64,000 nt of DNA, taken from Thozetella sp. PMI_491 (Eukaryota; Ascomycota; Sordariomycetes; Chaetosphaeriales; Chaetosphaeriaceae). Positions 12,926 to 49,089 of the stretch are shown here, in pieces. Position numbers and translations under genes: made by a program. Where the stretch lies: the NCBI GenBank assembly GCA_021432635.1, contig MU270018.1, positions 999,579 through 1,063,578 on the forward strand, given 5' to 3'. The notes below the pieces were generated by a model. It saw only the letters and a list, made by a program, of their open reading frames with translations, was not told where the DNA came from and ran no database searches. Each line of letters begins with the position of its first letter. Positions within the stretch are counted from its first letter, which is position 1.

Positions 12926-13455
12926 TGGGGCGTGTCGTTCTGTCAGTTCCGCGCTCAGTGTCGCAACGGCTGTGGCACGAGAGCAAGATTGGTGACGTGC
13001 CGTCTCGTTGGTGGGCGTTTGGTTTGGGGTCGCATAGCCTTATCGCTTATCGCCTGCCACGAAAGCACAGCTTTGAAGTGGGCCAGCCCCTAACCCAAGC
13101 ACCTTACCCAGCTACCACATAGAATGAGGCATGGAAATTCACCTCACATCGTTAGGTAGACAGGGGAAGCTTGGGTTTTCTTAGAGATTCCGGTAGCTTG
13201 AGCAACTAGCTAACAGTAGTTCTCCACGTCATTCAGCACATCCACTCGTTTCACACGTTTTGTAGCCATCTCCTAGCACGATGCCAAGTTCGCGCACATA
13301 GCACCGAAGAGCATCAATACCTCTGGTATCAGACGAACAACAGGGCAGCATGCAAAGTACAACTCATGGTAAAATACGCATCTAGCCTACGCTAATACTT
13401 TTGTCACCCTTGGGCATTCATATACCGTATTCTATGCCACCCCCAGGCGCTTCGT
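12926..13455. other. Promoter of GET2 and 3' flank of SEC31
   Basis: About 530 bases between two genes on the same strand. No independent gene is seen. It should contain the GET2 promoter and the SEC31 5'-distal flank; no specific site is recognised. Confidence 0.4.
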
Positions 13456-16400
13456 CTAAGGCGTGTTCTTGCTCATGGCGATCAGTCGCTTCACTCCGGG
13501 CTATCAAGATCAAGTTAGCAAGGGCACGTTCACTAAAAGACTTCGGCAAGAGATTTACCATCCACTGTCCCAATTCATTCGGCTTTGTCTGGGCGATGTT
13601 GGCCTGAATACCCGCGGCCTCGTCGTAGTTCTTCGCCTCCAGAGCCTGGGCTAGCCGCCCGAGCTCCGTGATCGTGTCGGGAGAGAGAACATCACCGTTG
13701 TTGAGATGGTCATAAAGCAACCCAAGGCGCTTCTCCGTGTCTTTGACCTGTGGTGCGAACGTCGCGGGTGCCTTTTTTGCCACACGCTGCATATCCCGCT
13801 CCAGGGCATCAACTATGTTCTGAACGTTGGCAGAGACTAGAGGTCGACCACCTGCCGGAGATTTGCTCATAGGAGGACCCGAGGCTCGTGGGGGTGGTCC
13901 GAGAGGCGCCTTGTTGGCAGGTGGTGGTCCTGCCGACGGTGGCGGCCCGGTGCGCGGGGGACCTCCGGGAGGTGGGCCGACTGGCGGCCGTCCCGCTTGA
14001 GGAGCCTCGTAAGGCGCAGGAGCATAGTGACCTGGAGCGCCGGTATGTTGCAGGGGGGCAGGAGCATAAGGGTTTGCCGGTGGTGGTCGGGCAGCCGCAG
14101 CAGCAGGTGGTGGGGGCACACCGGCTGGAGGCTGGGCGAACTGCTGCGGCGAGGGCGCGGGCGCGTACCGGTTAGACGGGGGTAGACCAGCTGGAGGAGG
14201 GTTGTAAGGGGATGCCGTCCCAGTCCGCGGAGGAGGAGGCGCGTACGGGTTCGGTGTGGTCGATGCAGCAGGTGGCGGCCCGAGGGGTTGCCCGACTTGT
14301 GGCGGCCCAGCGAGGGGAGAAGCCGTGTTCCGAGGCGGTGCAGACCCCTTGGGCGGTGGGGGCGGTGGTGTAGGAGCGCTTCGTCCGTAGCCACCCATGG
14401 GAGGAGGTGATGTAGGACCGCCCAGGCCTTGGAAGGGAGAGTTGGCTGCGTTGATGCTGGGAGTAGTCTTGCGCGGGGGCTGCCTAGCAACGATCGGCAC
14501 ATCGTTCCATTGGCCCACATCCTTGTTAATCTTCGGCGGAGGAGGGGCAGGACTCTGGCCCGTGTTCCTAGGAGGAGCACCGAAGGGGTTGGGATCGAAG
14601 CTACTAGGGCGGGGGGGACCGTATCCGCCGACAGGGGCAGGCGATGGGTTGTAGCCGGTCTGGGGCGCGTATGGAGAAGGCGAGGGCTGGAACTGGTTGG
14701 CATTGGGCGGAGCATACGGGTTGGGAGCCGGTGTTGGCACCTGCGGCTGGGTGGGCGCCTGGTACGGGTTTACAGGAGCCAGACCAGCAGGCTGGTAAGG
14801 GGCCGGAGTCGGGTAACCCAGAGGCGTCTGGTTCGGCCTTGCGCTTGCCCTGGACGCGGTAGCAGCCTGGCGAGCCGCGGGCTGAGGGGCGGCCCGCTTC
14901 GTGGCGAGCTTGACACGGTTTCTAGCCACCTCAGCGGCCTCATAATTGGCCGGTAGAAGGTCGAGATACTTCTCGGCTACAGCGAGGTGGCCATGAGCAG
15001 CGACAATGTCAGCATACTCGGTATACTTGTCGTACAAAGCCGCAAGCTTCCAGTCCGATGTCAAGTTCTTCTCATTGTCGGTGAACTTTGTAACGTGCCT
15101 GAAGACGGTGACTTTTTCGATAAAGTGCTGCAGGGCGCGAGCGTGGATGGAAAAGGTCGAGTCGTTGCTCGGCTCCTTCAAGCCAGCCTGTTCAGCCTCC
15201 TCGAGCTCGGCGATCCAGATATTGACCACCTTCTCGAGCTTAGAGCTGACTAGGTAGCAGAAAGAGGCGTCCTTCCGGGAGCCACCCTCGAGCACTCGGT
15301 CTCCGAGGCCCTCGCACAGATCGGGGAACTCAGACGGGTCTGCAAACGTGCATAGGGTAGCCATGGTCTCCTTCCAATCCGCGAGATCGGCGTTGTAGAC
15401 GATGTCCCAAAGGTTCTTGGCGACAACGGAGCTCAGAAGCCTTAGGTAGCTGGGTTTCCCCTGTTTCTGCGCAAGATAGGCGCTCTGGACCTTGTCGACG
15501 AGTTCCTTCCCGCCGCAGTTTGCGATGATGAAGGCGTCGGCTATCCTCTCCTCCTTCAAGCAGATGTCTGTGGCCTTCTCAAAGTTGCCGAGGATGAGCG
15601 CCTTGGTGATCTGGTCTTCCAACGCAGTGTTTCCGTCGCTGAGCAGATGAAAGGGGTCGTCTGTCTTGGCACCCTTGTTGGCAGCTAGATCCGAGAGGAA
15701 GTCGCCGTCATCAACATCAGCCCACATGGAGGTGATACGCTTGTGCTGCTTCTTAGCCTCGCCATTGGGCTGCGCATCCTCGGTCGTCTCAGCGGCCGCC
15801 TCGGTCTCCTTCTCCGCTCCATTGTCCTCGGCGCCGTTCGTGTCATCTTTCGGAAAGCCTAGATGCTCAATGATCTTGGTCCGACCGTCCGCATCGCTCA
15901 GGGTTTGAATAGCCCGCCACTCCGCCTTCTCATCATCGGTCTTGGCCTCAGCAATGCGGACTTCACAGATAGCGGCAATGTCACCGTTCTGGAGCTGCTC
16001 TTCAAACTTTTCAGTCGCAGAGCCAATATCGGAGTCCACCGAGAACTGGGATATTTGAATGGTCGACGATCTTGACTGGCCGTCCTTCTTCTTGAACGTG
16101 ACGAGCTTTCCGCCGTACCCGAAAGATACACCGACAGGCCGTTCGAACCACACGGGAGCTTTGGCTAGAGAAAATGCAGCTCCTTGGGGCTGCGTCTGCG
16201 CATTCGTAAAGAAGTCCTCGTCGTTCAAACTGCTCTGCGCAGCAGGTGCGCTCGAGGGGTTGGTGTTCTGGAGCGTTTGTATCGTAATTTTGCCGTCGAA
16301 AGAGGCAGTAGCAGATAGGTTGGGATTGTTAGGATGGAAGCGGGTCAAGAATGTCCAGTTGGTGACCTCCGGGAACTCGCCAAACAGAGTCCCGTTCTGG

Positions 16401-17348
16401 GGGTTCCAGACCAGGGTCCGGTTGTCCTTGCCAGACGACAACAGCAGGTCAGGGTCCTGCGGGCACCACGATAGAGAGAGCACGCCTTGGCTGTGCCCCT
16501 GAAGCGTCTTCTCGGGCGCATTCGAGTTCCTCAAATCCCAGAGGAGGATGGCCGGGGTGTTGTCGTCCGGGGTGGCCGTCATGAGCTTGGTCGAGTTGTT
16601 GGGGTCCCACGCGATAGCACTGACTGGCTTGCGGTTGTTGTTCAATGTCAAAGATGCCTTCTTGGTCTTCAAGTCCCAGACCGTCACGAAGCCGCCAGCG
16701 CCGCCTGTGGCGAGGATGTTGGCCACTTTTCTGTTCCATGCTACGACCTCGATGTCATCCGAGCGGGCAGCAGCCGTGCCAAGGCGGAATGGGGTCGAGA
16801 TGTCGTTGATGTCCCATATGTAGAGCTCACCCTTCGCTCCGGCTGTAGCGAGGATCTGGGGGCGGATGGGGTTGAACTGTAGTGATTTGATAGCTCCGGT
16901 GTGCTTCGTCGTGCGGGACATCAGTGCGTCCTCCTTGCCCTCGATCAGCTTCTCGGCATCCCACAGGTCGAGCGAGCCGTTCTCGGTGGCACCGGCGATG
17001 ATTCCGCGGGGGTGATCGTCGCTAGGCGGGCCCCAGGCGAGGTCATAGAATCTACGGCGAGAGGTGAGCGCATGTCCAAGGGGTAGCTCGAGAAGGGCAT
17101 TGGGCTGCCTTCTGCAAAAGGGCAAGCCAGGGAGCATACCTGGATTCAGCGCTGACGCTGAGGATGGGCTGTAACTCCAAGCCCTGTTCCGGGCTATCCA
17201 AGTTGAGGTCCCAGAGCTCAAGCTTGGTCTCGTCCGAGAAGTCGGCATCTACTGCGCCAGCGCGAGTACCGGTGACGAGCAGCGGCTTGGCTGCGCCGGG
17301 CGACCACGCAAAGGCGGCGGTGCGCGGGATGTCACGCAGGCGCACCAT
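13456..17348 (-). CDS. SEC31: COPII outer-coat protein SEC31
   Basis: Three exons (17348–17140, 17051–13559, 13500–13456) give 1248 aa. The N-terminal 330 residues form WD40 repeats ([48 protein letters not shown]), the propeller that builds the COPII cage with SEC13. An alpha-solenoid follows (about 500–800). Then comes a Pro/Gly-rich linker of some 300 residues that in this family recruits SEC23 and stimulates SAR1 GTPase. A C-terminal helical domain ends the protein. The last intron (13558–13501) matters: reading through gives a longer unfamiliar tail, whereas splicing yields [17 protein letters not shown], matching the usual fungal ending; a ctaac branch site supports it. The first exon starts [18 protein letters not shown], typical of the family. 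Confidence 0.95.
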
Positions 17349-20923: not shown

Positions 20924-21781
20924 TTATTTCTTGGACTTCTCGTCCTCGTCCTCTTCGTCGGAGCTCATGAACTCGTCATCTTCGTCGAAGCCGAAGAAAG
21001 ACCGGCTCTTGCCTTTGTCCTTCGCCACGGGTTCCGACGGCGGCGTGCTGGCCTTGGAGCTGCTTCCCTCCTCGGGCTCGTCCTCTTCCATGATAGCATC
21101 CTTGCTGGCTTCCGTTGAGTTTGAATCGTGAGACTTGCCCAGGAGGTTGTCTTGGTAGTTGCCTGTCTTCATTGCAGCAAGGACCGCTCCGCGCGTCCGC
21201 TCGCCCGTCTCTTCCTTGTCTTCGACCCATTTCCCGTCGAGCCGACCCTTGTTGCCGTGCTTGATTTCCTCCTGCTTGCGCTCCGTCATGTCAACGATCT
21301 CCTGCCATCGCTTCCTACGCTTCTCCTTCTCCTTGCGGTCCATTTCGGGCTTGATGGCTAGATACTCTGCGAGGGCTTTTGCCTCGTTGACAGTTCGTAT
21401 GCGGCGGCCGTCTAGGTTCCTGCTGGAGCCGTTCTCGTCGCCTCCTTGGTTCTTCTTCTTCTTGGACATGCGGCCTCCGGCGGCTCGGAGCTGAGAGCCG
21501 AAACCGCCCTTGCCACCACAGAGAGGGACTGAGAGTCGGAGCGAGAGGAAGTCATCTTCGGCCGCGGAAAGTAGGTCCGACAGGGGAGTATCTGACCGGG
21601 CTGGGAGTTGTTTATTTGATAGTGTTGTGAGCAGTAGCCGTCCGGTGTCTGGGAGCCGGCTGTCGATCTCTTGTCGAAGCTCGGAGATGGTAGTTGACGG
21701 CGGGACCGGGAGAGAAAGAGTCGCAGGCAGCCCAGTACCAGCGAAGCTGGTGATGAGAACATTGATCCTGCTCGGCGCCAT
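20924..21781 (-). CDS. SDE2: SDE2-like ubiquitin-fold pre-mRNA splicing / genome stability factor
   Basis: A single exon of 285 aa. The N-terminus (1–90) is a ubiquitin-like fold ending in [16 protein letters not shown]; the Gly-Gly at 89–90 followed by Lys is the site where Sde2 precursors are cut by deubiquitinases, freeing a C-terminal fragment that begins with Lys. The conserved segment after the cut (MSKKKKNQ, then [21 protein letters not shown]) matches the Sde2 domain. A charged coiled coil ([19 protein letters not shown]) and an acidic tail rich in Glu, Asp and Ser follow. In fission yeast the processed form joins the spliceosome and promotes excision of selected introns. That is notable here because several genes in this window have very unusual exons, though no link is shown. 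Confidence 0.9.
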
Positions 21782-33288: not shown

Positions 33289-34350
33289 ATGCAGCTTGCT
33301 GACAGCTCGATCCTTAGTGTTGTGGCCGTCCACCGCCTCAATTTCAGAGGCAATGTAGATCATGCCTGGGACACCTGGGAGATGGGCGACAAGCTTTGGC
33401 TTAGAGACTTCCTCCCTGCACGCCTTTCGAGGCCAGCTCGCGTGATGCTCTATGCGTATAACTCTAGCCCCGCCATACGCTCGGTAGCTCTCAACATCGA
33501 CGACCATGTAAACAGCCTTTTACAATGGCTTTCCCTTGGGCGCAAAGTAGGTCCTAACCTGCGTCCCAAGCCACCAAACCCGTCTTGACGAAGTTGTAGA
33601 GTGCAGAACGGAGACCTCTGGTGTTTCTATGCCACAGCCTAGGCGGACTAGTTGTCAAAGAAGTAGGCAAATCTCGAAGCGTATCTGTGGGATTCGCCTA
33701 TTAACCAAGGCGCCTTTAGGCGCTCATCGAGGCGAAAGCCAACGAGCGGTTTGCAGCCATTGCTGGAGCTACTTGCCTCCTCGTCTTCTTTGCCACGCCG
33801 CACCAGGGGTCAGGTCTCGCCAGTCTCGGGGACATCGCAGCAAGAATAGTCCAGACAGTCTCGCAGGCGCCTCGAAATGATCTTTTGGAGGCACTTAAGA
33901 AAACGTCAGAGGAAGCACAGCGGCGGTTCAAGAAGGCTCGCCATCTGTTCGACAAGTATTACGTCGTGAGCTTTTACGAGGAACAGCCGTATGGGCAGAT
34001 GGGCATTGTAAGCTTGTTTGAGCTTGGTGCAGATAAGAGGTACTGACTTTGGCTAGATTGTCGACCAAAAATCTGCCACCCTTTCTCTCCCGGGCTCGCG
34101 CGAGAAGCAGGTCCCTATCAGCGCCAACCACAGCACAATCTGCAAGTTTGACTCCGTCAACGGTGCCGCATGTAACCTCGTTTTGGAGACCATTGCGACA
34201 GAGCTGGAGTACGCCTTGGCAAGGACTCAGAGTAGTATGGCTGGCCCTCTATCACACTCACCATCATCCTCTCGTCCATGATGCAACTTGCTGACTCTTT
34301 CGCTAGACGAGGCTGCCACCCCCGTAGTATCGGATGATGATCGCAACTGT
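33289..34350 (+). CDS. SesB-like alpha/beta-hydrolase exons of an NLR gene (N-terminal part)
   Basis: Exons 33289–33546, 33600–33662, 33720–34007, 34057–34234 and 34307–34350 join in one frame through four short GT–AG introns (49–72 nt). The product reads SVVAVH, KLWLRDFLPARL, RVMLYAYNS, then RRPLVFLCHSLGGLVVKE with the nucleophile elbow G/C-H-S-L-G-G, then FFATPHQGSGLA, LVSFYE-like VVSFYEEQPYG, and a late IVDQKSATLSLPG...ANHSTICKFDS with the probable catalytic His. This is the serine-hydrolase effector domain found at the N-terminus of fungal NLRs such as SesB-type proteins. The usual HGLNG oxyanion motif is altered to HRLNF. The frame then ends at DDDRNC, one base out of register with the NACHT frame. 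The true N-terminus lies upstream (about 33002) but its join is unresolved. Confidence 0.65.
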
Positions 34351-37300
34351 TTTGAGGGACCTGCGCATCACAGACCCGCGCGACGACAAGCGCCGCATCG
34401 AGGAGTCAAAGGGGAACTTACTAAGAGATGCATGTCACTGGGTTCTCGACAGCCCCGAATTCCACCAATGGCGCCACGACGAACAGAGTCGGCTGCTCTG
34501 GGTTAAAGGCGACCCTGGCAAGGGCAAGACAATGCTGCTTTGCGGAATCATCGACGAGCTAGGGAACACGGACTCGGCCTCCCGGCCCTTGTCATTCTTC
34601 TTCTGCCAGGGTACCGACTCACGTATAAACCACGCGACTGCTGTCCTGCGCGGTCTCCTGTTTTTACTTCTCGAGAAGCAACCTTGTCTCCTCCAGCACG
34701 TGCGCCAGAAATACGACCTCGCCGGCAGAGCGCTCTTCGAAGATGTCAATGCGTGGGCTGCCTTGTCCACCATCTTCACGAGCGTGCTGGAAGACCCAAT
34801 TTTGCTGGGCGCCTACATAGTTATTGACGCGCTCGACGAATGTCAAACCGATCAGTTGAAACTCGTCGATTGGATTGTCCAGATGTCGTCTCGATTCCCT
34901 CGCGTCAGATGGGTTGTCTCTAGTCGCAACTGGCCTATCATAGAGAAGAACTTGAACCAAGTGAGGGAGAAGGCAATGCTATCTCTAGAGCTGAACGAAA
35001 AGTCCGTCTCGGCTGCGGTTGAGACATATATCCGATGCAAAGTCGCCCAGGTAGCTGCGCGAAATCAGTATAGCGACGAGGAGCGAGCTACAGTACAACA
35101 CGGCTTGTCTTCAAACGCGAGAGGCACCTTTCTCTGGGTAGCGCTGGTCTGTCAAGAACTGAGAGATACCCCAGGATGGGAAGCCGAAGAACAGTTGCGA
35201 GCATTTCCACCTGGACTCAACGATTTTTATGGCGAGATGATGGGCCGATTGCGACGATCACGACGTGCGGCGCTGTGCAGCAATATTTTGGCCGTCATGT
35301 CCGCCGTGTACCGACCCGTCACGTTGGAAGAGCTGAAATGCCTTGTCGAGCTACCTCGTGGTAGTCCTAGTAATGATAATGCGATGGGAGAAATCATACG
35401 AGAGTGCGGGTCACTCTTGACGCTTCGAGAACAAGAACGCACCATCTACTTCGTTCATCAGTCGGCAAAGGAATTTCTTATTGACACCAAACCAGATGGG
35501 ATATTCCCATCTGGTATTCGGGATTCGCACCGTGCTATCCTCTTGAAATCATTGCAAGCCATGACGGCAACGCTGCGCCGTGACATATACAAACTGGATG
35601 ATCCTGGATTACCAATCGACAAGATCCGGCCCCCCAACCCAGACCCGTTATCTGGAGTACGATACCCTTGTGTATACTGGATTGACCATTTACATGAGTA
35701 TCATGTTGGCGGTGACACGAAACCGGATCTCCAGGACGATGGGCCGGTCGATAGGTTCCAGCGCCACACCTTTCTATACTGGATGGAGGCTCTCAGTCTT
35801 CTCCGAAGCTTGTCAACTGGGATGCATTCTATCAAGAGATTTGATATTCTAGTTCAAGTAAGTCGATTGGACTGAATATGAGAATTTGCCCAACAACTCA
35901 ACAGCAACACGGATCACAGTTAACAAGTTTAGTCCGGGATGAACGGCGATTTATACATTCTCACTCAGCAACGGTCGAGAAGTATCCCCTGCAGCTATAT
36001 GCGTCGGCTCTTATTTTCAGCCCTCTGAAAAGTATAACAAAGGGTCTATCTCGAGCCGAGGAGCCTTCGTGGTTAGCCCGTGTCCCTCTAATGGAAGATG
36101 AATGGAGTTCTTGTCTCCAAACAATAGATTGCCATGACCACTGGGCCCGCTCGGTCGCCTGGTCGGCCGACGGTTGGCTCGCATCAGGCTCTTACAGCAG
36201 CACCATTAGGCTCTGGGATCCAGTTACCGTCCAATGCCAGCTAACTCTCAAGGGCCATACTAGGCAGGTCAACTCAGTTGCCTGGTCAAGCGACGGTCAG
36301 CTTGCATCAGGCTCTCACGACAACACCATTAGGCTCTGGGATCCAGTTACAGGCCAATGCCAGCTAACTCTTAAGGGCCATACTAGGCAGGTTAACTCAG
36401 TTGCCTGGTCAAGCGACGGTCAGCTTGCATCGGCCTCTTGTGATGATACCATTAGGCTCTGGGATCCAGTTACCGGCCACTGCCAGCTAACTCTCAAGGG
36501 CCATACTAGGCAGGTTAACTCAGTTGCCTGGTCAAGCGACGGTCAGCTTGCATCAGGCTCTCACGACAACACCATTAGGCTCTGGGATCCAGTTACAGGC
36601 CAATGCCATCTAACTCTTAAGGGCCATACTAGGCAGGTTAACTCAGTTGCCTGGTCAAGCGAGAGTCAGCTTACATCGGCTTCTCACGATCATACCATAA
36701 AGCTCTGGAACCGAACAACTGGCGAGTGCCAGTTAACACTTCAAGGCCACACTAAGTATATCCGCTCGGTTGCTTGGTCGGCCAGCGGTCGGCTTGCATC
36801 AGGCTCTCACGACAACACCATTAGGCTCTGGGACCCAGTTACCGGCCAATGCCAGCTAACTCTCAAGGGCCATACTAGGCAGGTTATCTCAGTTGCCTGG
36901 TCAAGCGACGGTCAGCTTGCATCGACCGCTGATGACTTTACCATCAAGCTCTGGGATTTGAACACTATCGAGTTTCAGACAACTATTGAGAGCCATACTG
37001 AACATGTCATTTCGGCTGCTTGGTCGTCCGACGGCTGCCACCTTGCGTCGTCCTCTACCGACGGTACCATCAAGCTCTGGGATCCAACTACCGGCCAATG
37101 CCAGCTAACTCTCGCAGACCATAGTCAACAGGTTACCGAAGTTGCCTGGTCTAGCGATGGTTGCCAGCTTGCATCGGCATCTTCGGACGAGACTGTTAAG
37201 GTCTGGGACCCAAAGACTGGTCAGTGTCGGATGACTCTTGTCGCTTCCGATTGGGTTCGATCGATCGCCTGGTCCACCGACGGCTGCCAGCTCGCATCGG

Positions 37301-37914
37301 CCTCTAGCGATGGGATTATCAGGCTCTGGGACCCGGTGACGGGTGTGTGCCAGAGAATTCTCGAAGGCCACGATTGGGGGGTCTACTCAGTCGCCTGGTC
37401 CGCCGACGGATGCCAGCTTGCATCGGCATCTTCGGACAAGACTGTTAAGGTCTGGGACCCAAAGACTGGTCAGTGTCGGATGACTCTCGACGCTTCCGAT
37501 TCGGTTACAAAGGTCGCCTGGTCTGCTGATGGCTGCCAGCTCGCATCGGCCTCTAGCGATGGGATTGTCAGGCTCTGGGACCCAAAGACTGGTCAATGTC
37601 GTGCAACACTTGAGATGGGACCCCTCGACTGTCTCCGCTTCGAGACGTCGAGCTCCTTACATACCGATTGTGGTATATTTGATTTGCAATTCGATGTGAT
37701 GCCGGCCGCTTTATTTGTCCCCCCTCATTATCCAAGGCCGCTATTACGCTACAGGGGTTATGGTATAAGTTACGACGGAACGTGGGTTACCTATAATGGT
37801 AGGAACATCCTGAGGCTACCCCCTGAGCATATACCGGGCGTGTTAGCTACGCACCAAAATAGCCTCGCGCTGGGCTGTTCTACGGGTCGCGTCTTGGTAT
37901 TGAAAGGTTTGTAG
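34334..37914 (+). CDS. NACHT–WD40 part of an NLR-type receptor (HET-D/E-like)
   Basis: Two exons, 34334–35857 and 35905–37914 (47-nt intron, phase 0). The first ATG of the open frame is at 34334, but homologous protein starts further left, so this ORF is the C-terminal part of a longer gene. LRDLRITDPRDDKRRIEE precedes the NACHT domain; the Walker A loop is GDPGKGKTMLL and the Walker B region is YIVIDALDECQTD. A winged-helix-like region (LLTLREQERTIYFVHQSAKEFL, split: LLTLREQERTIY, FVHQSAKEFL) and the linker ALIFSPLKSI..LSRAEEPSW follow. Twelve WD40 repeats complete the protein. Fungal proteins of this build sense non-self, trigger incompatibility or cell death, and often vary in repeats between strains. 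A one-base excess at 34350–34353 separates it from the hydrolase exons. Confidence 0.85.
36130..37620 (+). repeat. Twelve tandem WD40 repeat units, near-identical at DNA level
   Basis: Units are 123–126 bp (41–42 codons). Units 2, 3, 4 and 6 share very high DNA identity; units 2 and 4 differ by about two bases out of 123. Units 9/11 and 10/12 form a second pair of close matches with a 249-bp period. Each unit has SVAWSSDGQLASGS and TIRLWDPVTGQC-like strands. Such low divergence implies recent duplication or gene conversion. Confidence 0.9.
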
Positions 37915-43673: not shown

Positions 43674-46647
43674 ATGGATGATTTGGAGGAGATCGATAAG
43701 TCTGCGTCGTCTTGGACCCAGAAACGAAGCTTCAACGTATTCCCTCTGCGCCTGACATATCGTCCCGCCGCCGAACATGAGGAGGTAGGAGAGCTAGAAA
43801 GAAATAATGCCCTTGGTAAGGCCCCAAGAAGTTGTCAAAAGTCAGAGCGCTCACCTGGTCCCAGTACCTCGCTTCCAGCAGCTCTCCCCATCCACGTCAT
43901 GGGCTGCTGCATCCCAGCCTTCTTACCATCCTGCTGGCCGCCCAGTCGATCTGAACCGGTCGAGTCAGAATTGGCTACTGAAGACCTATCCCGAGGCCAT
44001 CGTCGGAGACGAAGAGTTCACTTCTCTTCTTTCCGCTGAAATCTCGAGCTCCAGGGCTAGATATGAACCATCTCTGACGGGGGCTCTTCTCGCTGTTGGC
44101 GAAATTTTAGACGCGAGGGTATCCGGGGAGTCTCAAGGGCACCTCGTGGTAGCGAGTGCGTCGGGAGAGTTCGGGCATATCCTCCGACTAGCCGTCCTTG
44201 AAAGAGAGGAATGGACCTGGAGTGAGCATTCTAGCAACGCAGACTTGATTATTCGTCTAAAGGCCGTCGACCCGGACGGCTGCACAGATTGGTTCGAGGA
44301 TGCGGAGCCCATACTATCCATCAAATTCATCACCGACATTAGAGGTGATGAGGCTACCCGCTGGATGGTGGTCCAAAAGGCTAGCTCTACAGTCCTGCTT
44401 CGTCCCGAAATACGACGGACGTCTGCTTATGACGAAGAGTCGGGAATCTTTTCGCGGCAGGATCCATATTGGATATATGCGAACCCGACATGCTCCATAT
44501 CCAAGGAAGAAACAGGGGGCGATGCACATTGCGATGTTGCTTTCAACCCCTCTTCCCCAGGGGACGGCCCAGAGCCACCTCAGCTGGCCATCGTCGGTCA
44601 AGCTGGGAACTGGAGTGTTTGGGACTTATTCGCAGCGGGGGATGCACAACCGATGCTCTTGAATAAGGTACGCCGCGATTACGGAAACGCCGCCACTGGG
44701 TTGAGGACCAGTCTGCCTCCCGACACGGAGAAAGACTCTGCGCTTCACCGAATCATGTGGCTGCCGCCTCCCGGTACTGCCGAGGCTCCCAAGCCCTCGC
44801 TGGATCCTGATCTTTTGCGTGCCAAGCATCCTTTGCCGCTCAGGCGGGCTCAAGCACTCGTCCTTTGTAGTAGTCATGCTCTGGACATTGTCGACATTGG
44901 AACAGGAAGAATCAACCATGCTGTCAACCTGGTGGCGCCGACCAAAACCCGGAGAATCTTGCAGATGCAACCCTGTCCACTGGACTCGTCCCAATTCTTC
45001 GTCCTCACCAACAAGACGTTTTCTTGGGTTGGTAACAGACCTGCTCCGAACGGGAACCCTGCGCTCAGTCCCCTTCTTTCCCGAAGCCATCACATAGATA
45101 CCGAGCAGGCACCTCTCCAGCTCAGCGTGTCCTTACCCTTCCTCAGGGGAGACGGTTCGCTATTTGTTTCGATCCGCGCCGCAGGCGCTTCACAGATGAT
45201 GATACATCGTGTCATGCCTGCGAAACCTGGCGGCTTAGCTCAGTGCCATTCGCAAATAGTCAGCCTTGAAACTGCCGTCAATCCTGTTACTACCGCCCTT
45301 ATCCCTGTCGAGTGGAGGCTTAAGCACAAGCGCACCGCCAACGAACTGATTCCGCTGCTATCCCAAGGGGAGCTCACATACTGCCAGCTCATCACATTAG
45401 GATCAGACTTCAGTGTCAGCTCTTCGCTCTGCGCTTGGTCGGACCAGCCGAATTTTGAGGTGTCACCCCCAGACAGAATACGCGATGAAAAGAGCAAGAG
45501 CCAAAGCTGGCATTCCGAAAATACATTTTTGATCCCGGATCTTGATGTTCTCGACAACGGGTCTACGAGTCTTAACCCGCAAGCAACCCAGATGAATCCC
45601 GATCTGTCTCAAGTTCCAGCTGCTAGGTTCATCAGCCTGATGTTCCCAGCAGCTGCGATCTCCCAAAGAGCCGAAGCAGCTGTCGAGGGCCGACAAGACG
45701 ACGAGGCGATACCGGGCTCGCTGGCCAGCAACGCTCATGATGTCTTCAACGAAGTACAGGAACTGGCCGAGGGCCATGGGTCTTCATTTACCCTGTAAGC
45801 ATTATGAGCAATAAAAATATGTGACTCTTTCTCCAACGCTGACTTGATATCTAGGCTAGATGCTGCCGGCGGTAGTCAATGCAGCTCGGCGGATGCTCTG
45901 CATGCATGTCACAATTGGGGGGGTGAGCGTCCGGGGATCAGCATCAGCCGCCCTGGGCAGTGGAACCCAAGTATCGAGTCCGAATCCATTCGGGATATCT
46001 GGTCAGACAGCTACAACTCTCTTGGATTCGGGGGAAGTTCTATGCCCACGATCGACCTCATCTCCCACCAGCTCGAGGCCTCTCGATGGTTTCTATCGAC
46101 CACAACGCAAGATCTGGTTTCCGAACCTAGCCAGCAATCGCAGACCTTCACGCCAGTGCGACAATCTGGGAGTCGCCAGTCAACAGCATCCTCCCAGGAG
46201 CACGCAGAAGACCCACTTGGAGCGCGGCTCCGGCGATATCTGCCCACTCTGAAGACAGTGACGCAACGAGAGGGGGGTGCGGCTCTCCCGATAGCGCACT
46301 GGAATATTGGCGGGGACCCGGACAAGACGAAATGGAAAGATCCAGAAGGCCTCAAACAGGACAAGGAAACAGCATTGCAGCGTAAGAAAAGAGAGGAGTC
46401 CGCTCAGAGGAAGTTGGCAAGGTCAACGAGCGTGCTCTCACAGCGCTCAGAGAGCGCAGCGCCCTCCATATATGCACTATCCCAGCCTACGCCTTCTATC
46501 GCGTTTGGGACCCAGCCGAGCCCACGCCAGCCATCGCTAGCGAACTCCCAGTTCTCGCAGCCCCAGTCGCAGGTCGTGGCTGGACCTTTCGGGGCAAGAA
46601 GGCCAAGGTCAAAGACGCCAGTCCCGAAAATCAGGGGCTTCACGTGA
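43674..46647 (+). CDS. RRN6: RNA polymerase I core-factor subunit RRN6
   Basis: Three exons in my model, 43674–43815, 43865–45794 and 45855–46647, sum to 2865 nt and 954 aa. The N-terminal half fits the Rrn6 beta-propeller (NWLLKTYPEAIVGDEEF, LSIKFITD, LAIVGQAGNWSVWDL, ALDIVDIGTGRI). The C-terminal third holds LGARLRRYLPTLK and ends in a basic, disordered tail (GARRPRSKTPVPKIRGF) typical of the fungal family. Rrn6 with Rrn7 and Rrn11 binds the rDNA promoter core and recruits RNA polymerase I in the nucleolus. The first intron is less certain: donor GTAAGG at 43816 with acceptor at 43864 restores frame (NNAL|VPRFQQL), but donor 43785 with acceptor 43845 also works. The 45795–45854 intron is clear. 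Confidence 0.85.
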
Positions 46648-48092: not shown

Positions 48093-49089
48093 CTACATGA
48101 AGTCATCTTCCCAGTCGTCGCCACGGTCCTGGTTGCTCGATGCCGCCATGTTCTGCTCGCTGAAGAGCTCGTCGTAGGCGTGGTCCTTCTGCCACTTCTT
48201 TTCCTGCCTCTCCTTGGCGACGCGCAACTCTTCCTTTTTCTATACCGGGCGAGGCAGCTGTTAGCAGGCCCCTACCTATACGAGACCTAGGACGAGGCCT
48301 GGAGAGGGAAAGAAAGAAATGGGGCTTAGCACTCACCCTCTTCTGCTGGTCGGCTTGGTCCCTCTTGCGCAGCTCGCGCAGGCGGTCCTCTCTCTCTTGC
48401 CTGAGATCCGGGTGCTTCTCTACCTTGGTCTTGTTGAGGCGGTTGATTATAACGTTCTCACGCTTCTCCACATGTATCCGCTTCACCTTCTTGTCGTCCT
48501 TAAAGCTCACCTGGCCGGCAGCCATGCTGCCATCCTTGCGAAGGTTGGACCAGGGCGTGTAGATGACCGTGATGTTGTCCTTCTTGTTTCCTTTGGCGCG
48601 GGGTTAGTAACCATAGCAAGTAGAAATTAGCATGGCTAACAAGGCGGCTGCGGCTCGTACCCTCGATGGAGTTGGCCTTGGTAAGTTGGGCCAGGTCGGT
48701 CAGGAGGTCCTGGGGAATGTTCTCCCAGGTGTCACCCTCCCGTAGCCTGAGGTAGATGTGGGCGCTCGACAGCTTGTCAACGTGGAACTTTTCTCTGGTC
48801 AACACTGTATGCGGCTTCTCTTCCGGCTTGCCGCCTGGTCCTTCTTACCCTTTGGGTGGTCAGTCAGCACGCGGGGTCGAGACGGCAACGGGGGTTGCGA
48901 GTTTGATGTTGCCTACCAGACATCCTCCTCCCAACCAAACTTGATCAGATCCTCATCTGTGAAGTCATATTTTAGACTCGAAGCGTCGCGGGCTTAGAAT
49001 GGCAGGACGCCCATACTCTCAAATTTATCCTTGCCCATGTAGACATAAGCCGGAGGGTCGACGACATTGGACGTAAGGTAGTAGACCAT
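48093..49089 (-). CDS. CCDC25/Jlp2-like protein with NFACT-R domain, containing a 1-nt exon
   Basis: Six exons: 49089–49017, 48956–48917, 48849 (one base), 48787–48661, 48590–48337 and 48239–48093. They sum to 642 nt and 213 aa. Conserved motifs read in order: [38 protein letters not shown]|, [35 protein letters not shown], then a Lys/Arg/Glu coiled coil and an acidic end DDWEDDFM. This is the NFACT-R domain family (human CCDC25, yeast Jlp2), related to the RNA- and ribosome-associated part of NEMF/Rqc2. The conserved Trp codon is TG from exon 2 and G from a single-base exon; no direct acceptor restores the frame otherwise. A one-base assembly error at the TGG|GT donor is the main alternative. 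Confidence 0.88.

Follow-up and report, generated by a model that had tools for sequence, protein, structure and literature searches.

Structure of the CCDC25 homologue and enumeration of splice paths

On the minus strand of the analysed window, a stretch of 64,000 nucleotides from Thozetella sp. PMI_491, a CCDC25 homologue (48093..49089) has a second exon that ends in TG, and its next coding exon, 129 nt further on, begins with TTC in phase 0, which raises the question of how the two are joined into one reading frame. The initial annotation had noted this phase relation, which we reproduced, and had proposed that the gap holds an exon of a single nucleotide. The protein, with its NFACT-R_1 domain, belongs to the CCDC25 family, as judged from the Pfam PF05670 match (E=2e-32; 112.5 bits against a curated cut-off of 29.8) and the match to the human CCDC25 structure 7eof (E=3e-61); human CCDC25 reads DIWFH at the corresponding position.

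In the assembled coding sequence, exon 1 (49017..49089) is followed by a 60-nt intron (48957..49016; GTATGG...CACAG) and by exon 2 (48917..48956), whose 3′ end, GATGTCTG, supplies bases 1 and 2 of the Trp38 codon. Two paired introns come next, the first of 67 nt (48850..48916; GTAGGC...CCAAAG) and the second of 61 nt (48788..48848; GTAAGA...GAAAAG), separated by the putative exon 3, a single G at 48849..48849 that provides the third base of Trp38 (TG|G). The next coding exon begins TTCCACGTT; this is exon 4 (48661..48787), with the 5′ end TTCCACGTTGAC (FHVD) in phase 0, and it is followed by a 70-nt intron (48591..48660; GTACGA...CTAAC...CCAAAG), exon 5 (48337..48590), a 97-nt intron (48240..48336; GTGAGT...GCTAAC...TATAG) and exon 6 (48093..48239), which ends with DDWEDDFM and the stop codon. 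The six exons of 73, 40, 1, 127, 254 and 147 nt add up to 642 nt, that is 213 aa and a stop, so that the length and the divisibility by three claimed at first sight hold.

With 60, 70 and 97 nt in the other three introns, 67 and 61 nt are ordinary sizes for this gene, and 129 nt taken as one intron would be its longest. By inspection, a putative branch site, CTGACTGAC, lies at 48859..48867 in the first paired intron, with the branch A 10 or 14 nt from the intron end, and another, TTGAC, at 48798..48802 in the second, with the branch A of GTTGAC 11 nt from the end. The GTAGGC donor and both AAG acceptors look weak against the splice consensus; another intron of the same gene likewise ends in CCAAAG, and AAG acceptors are therefore not odd for this CCDC25 homologue.

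We enumerated splice paths from exon 2 to the end of the next coding exon, allowing single introns of at least 30 nt with GT-AG, GC-AG or AT-AC ends and pairs of GT-AG introns of at least 40 nt each. None of the 24 canonical single introns that kept the frame open in this range restored the conserved 15-residue motif, which, for canonical ends, bears out the claim that one intron cannot build it. Among the 311 two-intron paths with an open frame exactly one did so, and it removes 48916-48850 and 48848-48788 around G 48849, the very coordinates first put forward. Both the open frame and the conserved protein thus depend on the G (1/311 vs 0/24), and leaving it out shifts the frame and brings a stop after 66 codons. 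It stands in CCAAAG|G|GTAAGA, where the AG and the GT each form part of a complete intron with a branch-like site. The one-base frame break that results from reading the stretch as one intron could also mark the gene as a frameshifted pseudogene, but the remaining 211 residues of the protein are intact and conserved across five further exons, and we give this reading the lowest probability of all, close to nil.

As a null model, the 129 nt were dinucleotide-shuffled 20,000 times with the first six and last four bases fixed. The arrangement YTRAC..AG|G|GTRNG, with 40 nt or more to either end, arose in 7 of the 20,000 shuffles and CTRAC..AGGGTAAG in none of them. When no branch site was demanded, the less specific AG|N|GTRNG turned up in 701 of 20,000, which means that most of the weight rests on the branch site and on the base being G. 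The nucleotide at 48849 is very probably a constitutive one-nucleotide exon: this G fills the last position of the Trp38 codon in a CCDC25-type protein and is flanked by two short U2-type introns.

Public Thozetella model and abnormal junctions in relatives

The best match to the window protein was the deposited CCDC25 of Thozetella sp. PMI_491 (P0001), which has 211 residues and is identical save for a missing Val-Trp; Thozetella is placed in the Chaetosphaeriales (Sordariomycetes). One of the listed paths, a 134-nt intron at 48788..48921 on the minus strand with the donor GAT|GTCTGG (48921), loses Val37 and Trp38 and reproduces this public protein. If the public annotation is correct, this donor is used and the protein has 211 aa; the path is a legal GT-AG one, and the same Val-Trp is skipped in 37 homologues among the best 120 of 3891 (31 with EED, 4 with DED and 2 with EQD). 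GTCTGG is, however, a poor donor against the splice consensus, human CCDC25 keeps the Trp, and the models of relatives point the other way.

For these, we combined the best 120 of 3891 homologues with 96 new ones from the best 120 of 3805 obtained with a Dothideomycete query, and split the set into 184 models with an NCBI source and 32 proteins without one. The latter come from short contigs and were taken as transcripts because of their uninterrupted frame; at least six form one Cenococcum-like group and are not independent. Among the matches listed, the junction was abnormal in 66 of the 184 NCBI models (118 looked normal) and in 0 of the 32 transcript-like proteins (Fisher p=4e-6, a value that ignores relatedness), and none of the 32 showed the two-residue loss. 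The transcript-like contigs, which are from relatives and whose transcript status is assumed, encode Trp at the junction. Compared with the window protein, 65 of the 184 NCBI models carried an indel at residues 30-39; no other bin of 10 residues had one in more than 6 of 184.

Near-identical sequences were modelled with and without the two residues. The short contig P0251 and Glonium P0281 agree at 211/211 positions except that VW is absent from the Glonium gene model, and the Cenococcum-like contig P0246 keeps the VW that Cenococcum P0279 (210/211) drops. Both kinds of model also occur in Phyllosticta citriasiana (P0295 and P0333; 210/211), between P. citricarpa P0288 and P. paracitricarpa P0322 (211/211) and in Diplodia seriata (P0250 and P0334; 204/205), and for Sporothrix schenckii and Apiospora arundinis there are two differing abnormal models of one gene in each (211/211 each). 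We consider it very unlikely that the deposited Thozetella protein is the right one.

Several other abnormal models fit particular splice choices. Those reading VWY or VWW are compatible with TG|GTRN and those reading VWF with TG|GTNN only, in keeping with a nearby GT four bases on (P0077, P0109, P0021 and P0093). P0327, P0334 and P0335 read EEDVC|AHIY, which corresponds to the join of 48916 to 48765 among the paths enumerated for the window. In Thermothielavioides terrestris P0090, EED is followed by GMEATRSYLPAGRLKLTRPAAQ and then FHV, and the 66 nt of this insert can open with G|GTRNG and accommodate a branch site 17 nt from their end; P0016 and P0080 fit TG|G|GTRNG. Five models (P0073, P0074, P0087, P0302 and P0315) were not explicable as simple read-through. 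P0074 (Sporothrix epigloea) and P0315 (Elasticomyces elasticus) share the identical odd model EEDVCVR|FHV despite the distance between the species.

The affected names comprise Sordariales, Ophiostomatales, Xylariales, Thyridium and Thozetella, which we take to belong to the Sordariomycetes, and Lophium, Cenococcum, Glonium, Phyllosticta, Diplodia, Cryomyces, Coniosporium and Bathelium, which we take to lie outside that class. Both Fusarium rows among the matches listed (P0088 and P0099) look normal.

Read-through open reading frames

A fragment search took as its query the exon that follows the G, edges included, and eight of 120 fragments (from 123 matches) were dropped for want of the FH motif, leaving 112. 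Among these matches, W and FH are continuous in 72 of 112 fragments, with no intron and the Trp codon intact (e.g. P0137, P0141 and P0176), and the fungi in which exon 2 runs straight into FH.DKL seem to be without an intron at the site. Given these 72 and the 118 normal models of 184, many fungi may be without the one-nucleotide-exon structure. In the other 40 of the 112 matches a different sequence runs into FH, and the residue before FH is Gln in 36 and Lys in 4, in all 40 cases what NAG|TTC in phase 0 demands.

We sought AG|G|GTRNG 40-95 nt before the TTC by back-translation, which measures compatibility and not the actual letters. Where 48 nt or more were available upstream, 8 of 16 fragments could encode the pattern (null mean 0.90); with 66 nt or more it was 8 of 10 (0.80), and with 90 nt or more 8 of 9 (0.79). 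In each case 0 of 2000 shuffles reached that number, and in the fitting fragments the pattern lay 52-86 nt before TTC. The ninth long fragment, P0221, fits only with the relaxed donor GTRNN. Against the same number of peptide shuffles (n=2000), exons of zero bases, A, C or T and four two-base controls gave no clear enrichment, the nearest being GN with 3/16 (162/2000 shuffles) and zero with 6/16 (193/2000). An exon of zero nucleotides (AG|GT) was also considered for the long fragments; it fits 5 of 9, with a null mean of 3.2 (347/2000 shuffles), and is thus not enriched. A branch-like YTNAY was found 8-31 nt before the first acceptor in 7 of the 8 fitting fragments, a count for which no null was computed, and the remaining one, P0195, starts too near for a branch-site call.

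Four fragments, P0129, P0130, P0216 and P0221, can be read from inside exon 2 across the whole stretch, with TG|GT at the exon end and a stretch of 110, 140, 134 and 128 nt, respectively. Two fragments of 15 nt, P0125 and P0128, match the exon-2 start pattern as well, which must be a chance fit.

These data bear on two further explanations. The first is that the assembly lacks one G at the donor, where it reads TCTGGTAGGC (region 48910-48920); GATGTCTGG|GTAGGC would then open an ordinary 129-nt phase-0 intron. Single-base indels are common among long-read errors, but relatives share the same phase problem, with trouble at the same residue in 66 of 184 NCBI models and a TG|GT donor readable in the four fragments, which makes a missing base unlikely; two internal introns of normal size would moreover be a coincidence. 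We rate this even lower than the public annotation. The second is a single intron cut one base early at its 3′ end (AAAA|G TTC, GT-AA), which yields the same mRNA because the introns end in G. Three single 128-nt removals with non-canonical ends do restore the protein, and the shift is feasible in any relative with an intron ending in G. Such a cut violates the AG rule, however, and leaves unexplained both the internal AG|G|GTRNG, fitted by 8 of the 9 long fragments, and a length of about two introns (129 nt here, 110-140 nt in the four fragments), and it appears less probable again than a missing G. We read the one-nucleotide exon as genuine and conserved, and as probably handled in two successive splicing steps.

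Proposed splicing of the two introns

In the mechanism that we propose, the G would be flanked by two complete U2-type introns (AG|G|GT), removed one after another, and each short intron would be recognised as a unit through signals of its own (donor, branch site and acceptor). One base leaves hardly any room for both a donor with U1 bound and an acceptor complex, and this argues for two successive reactions. If the upstream intron went first, TGG|GTAAGA would result, and if the downstream one did, AAAG|GTTCC; either way the G would then lie inside a normal exon, and the mRNA would be identical. In filamentous fungi short introns are usually recognised as units, so two introns around one base would be tolerable. 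We infer both the RNA junction in Thozetella and the splicing order.

Spliced RNA with the G would read GAGGAGGATGTCTGGTTCCACGTTGAC. The joins GATGTCTG|TTCCAC or GAGGAGGAT|TTCCAC as the main product, in spliced forms that would read GATGTCTGTTCCAC or GAGGAGGATTTCCAC, would run contrary to the one-nucleotide exon. Skipping of the G by a single 129-nt excision would give the stop after 66 codons and probably a substrate for mRNA decay, and one may speculate that leaky skipping could lower expression.

Comparison with known single-nucleotide exons

The initial annotation had named the plant APC11 gene as a precedent and knew of no fungal case. The former stands, and the latter does not: a single-nucleotide exon of Fusarium CYP621A, backed by RNA reads, was published in February 2026 (PMC12940212), and the CCDC25 exon is not the first in fungi. 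The two cases are alike in being fungal, in the form AG|G|GT, in lying within a conserved motif, in the distance between the outer splice sites (139 nt in F. graminearum, similar to the 129 nt here) and in that most gene models are wrong at the exon. They differ in that CYP621A is a P450 in which the exon base is central in a Gly codon, and in that its exon is reported there within Fusarium only, in a rarely expressed gene (PMC12940212).

In plants, 1-nt microexons are described in APC11 (PMC4674806) and VPS55 (PMC8831610), and two further articles return to the APC11 case (PMC12409088, PMC9702816). They resemble the CCDC25 exon in lying in conserved genes and in being absent from reference annotations (PMC4674806, PMC8831610), and both are conserved across diverse land plants (PMC8831610). 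Unlike here, the exon base of Arabidopsis APC11 is A, in a 422-nt stretch, and that exon was proven by base mutation, RNA-seq and RT-PCR (PMC4674806).

The arrangement also recalls the spliceosomal twin introns, or stwintrons, in which neighbouring U2 introns of filamentous fungi are spliced in consecutive reactions (PMC5639578, PMC12403724). In a stwintron, a splicing motif of the external intron (donor, branch site or acceptor) is split by the internal one (PMC5639578), whereas both CCDC25 introns are complete and leave one exonic base. By inspection, GTAAGA and CCAAAG are intact and no [D1,2] parse yields an external intron starting with GT, and a stwintron was rejected; as both introns have complete signals, the arrangement amounts to two ordinary introns separated by a single base and not to a nested intron.

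In the open-access literature searched we found no earlier report of a single-nucleotide exon in CCDC25, and the only nuclear genes with such an exon were the plant genes APC11 and VPS55 and the Fusarium gene CYP621A; some further matches were mitochondrial, and the articles viewed on CCDC25 and introns dealt with human or medical subjects. What is new is the gene and, for fungi, the apparent breadth across Sordariomycetes and Dothideomycetes. An exon of this kind in a widely conserved housekeeping gene, probably common to many Ascomycota, would supply naturally replicated cases, in fungi that are tractable, of the spliceosome handling two introns around one base, in which the order of their removal and the reason for selection to retain the arrangement could be studied. 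It also exposes an annotation flaw, as 66 of the 184 sampled NCBI models of CCDC25 are abnormal here, and an indel at one residue that occurs in gene models but is absent from transcripts could serve as a signature for finding further tiny exons.

Age and evolution of the exon

The presence of abnormal models in both Sordariomycetes and Dothideomycetes suggests that the one-nucleotide-exon structure may be old, and we infer an ancestry shared by both classes. On a tree of the 184 NCBI models built without the junction residues, the 66 abnormal ones required 32 changes, whereas shuffled labels needed 54.0 on average (range 43-60; 200 shuffles). The abnormal models are partly clustered by clade and partly scattered, as expected if the structure is clade-specific and annotators differ in how they handle it. 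A pattern search of viral contigs (161 matching stretches) and genome contigs (92) yielded no DNA of fungal relatives.

Intronless plant copies have been explained by the loss of both introns through reverse transcription (PMC8831610), which may hold for CCDC25 as well, and the intronless fragments that keep the Trp codon would fit a joint loss of this kind, as proposed for plant APC11. As to its origin, the exon possibly arose by the scenario of Nelson and Syed, in which a base is lost and a cryptic AGGGT adopted (PMC12940212), or possibly by the gain of a second intron beside the G. Tandem duplication of one intron finds no clear support: the global similarity of the two is 1.5, whereas shuffles average -2.6 and do equally well in 243 of 2000 cases.

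With less assurance than for the exon itself, we lean towards the view that it is ancestral to at least the Sordariomycetes and Dothideomycetes, was retained in the form AG|G|GT, disappeared in some cases together with both introns, and represents a fungal counterpart, of independent origin, of the land-plant APC11 and VPS55 exons. If ancestral to both classes, AG|G|GT would have been retained for hundreds of millions of years. Because the frame is truncated when the exon is skipped, it possibly acts as an inbuilt control of quality.

Other genes in the window

A homologue of Sde2 lies on the minus strand at 20924-21781 (Pfam Sde2_N_Ubi_yeast 3.5e-26, SDE2 2e-21). Fission yeast Sde2 is required to excise introns in which branch point and acceptor lie far apart (PMC9508853); that a homologue is located in the same window as the CCDC25 gene is probably a coincidence. 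On the plus strand, at 34334-37914, a NACHT (NPHP3_N) frame stands end to end with a frame of WD40 repeats (12 matched WD40 stretches); the former stops at 35875 and the latter starts at 35878, with a GTAAGT at 35858, and the pair possibly reflects an intron or a broken NLR-like gene. Rrn6 (43807-46647, plus strand) is present as two frames, with a beta-propeller and a K-rich C-terminal domain, probably split by an intron. The large frame at 13418-17248 on the minus strand matches WD40, Sec16-type and SRA1 domains, presumably the domain set expected of Sec31.
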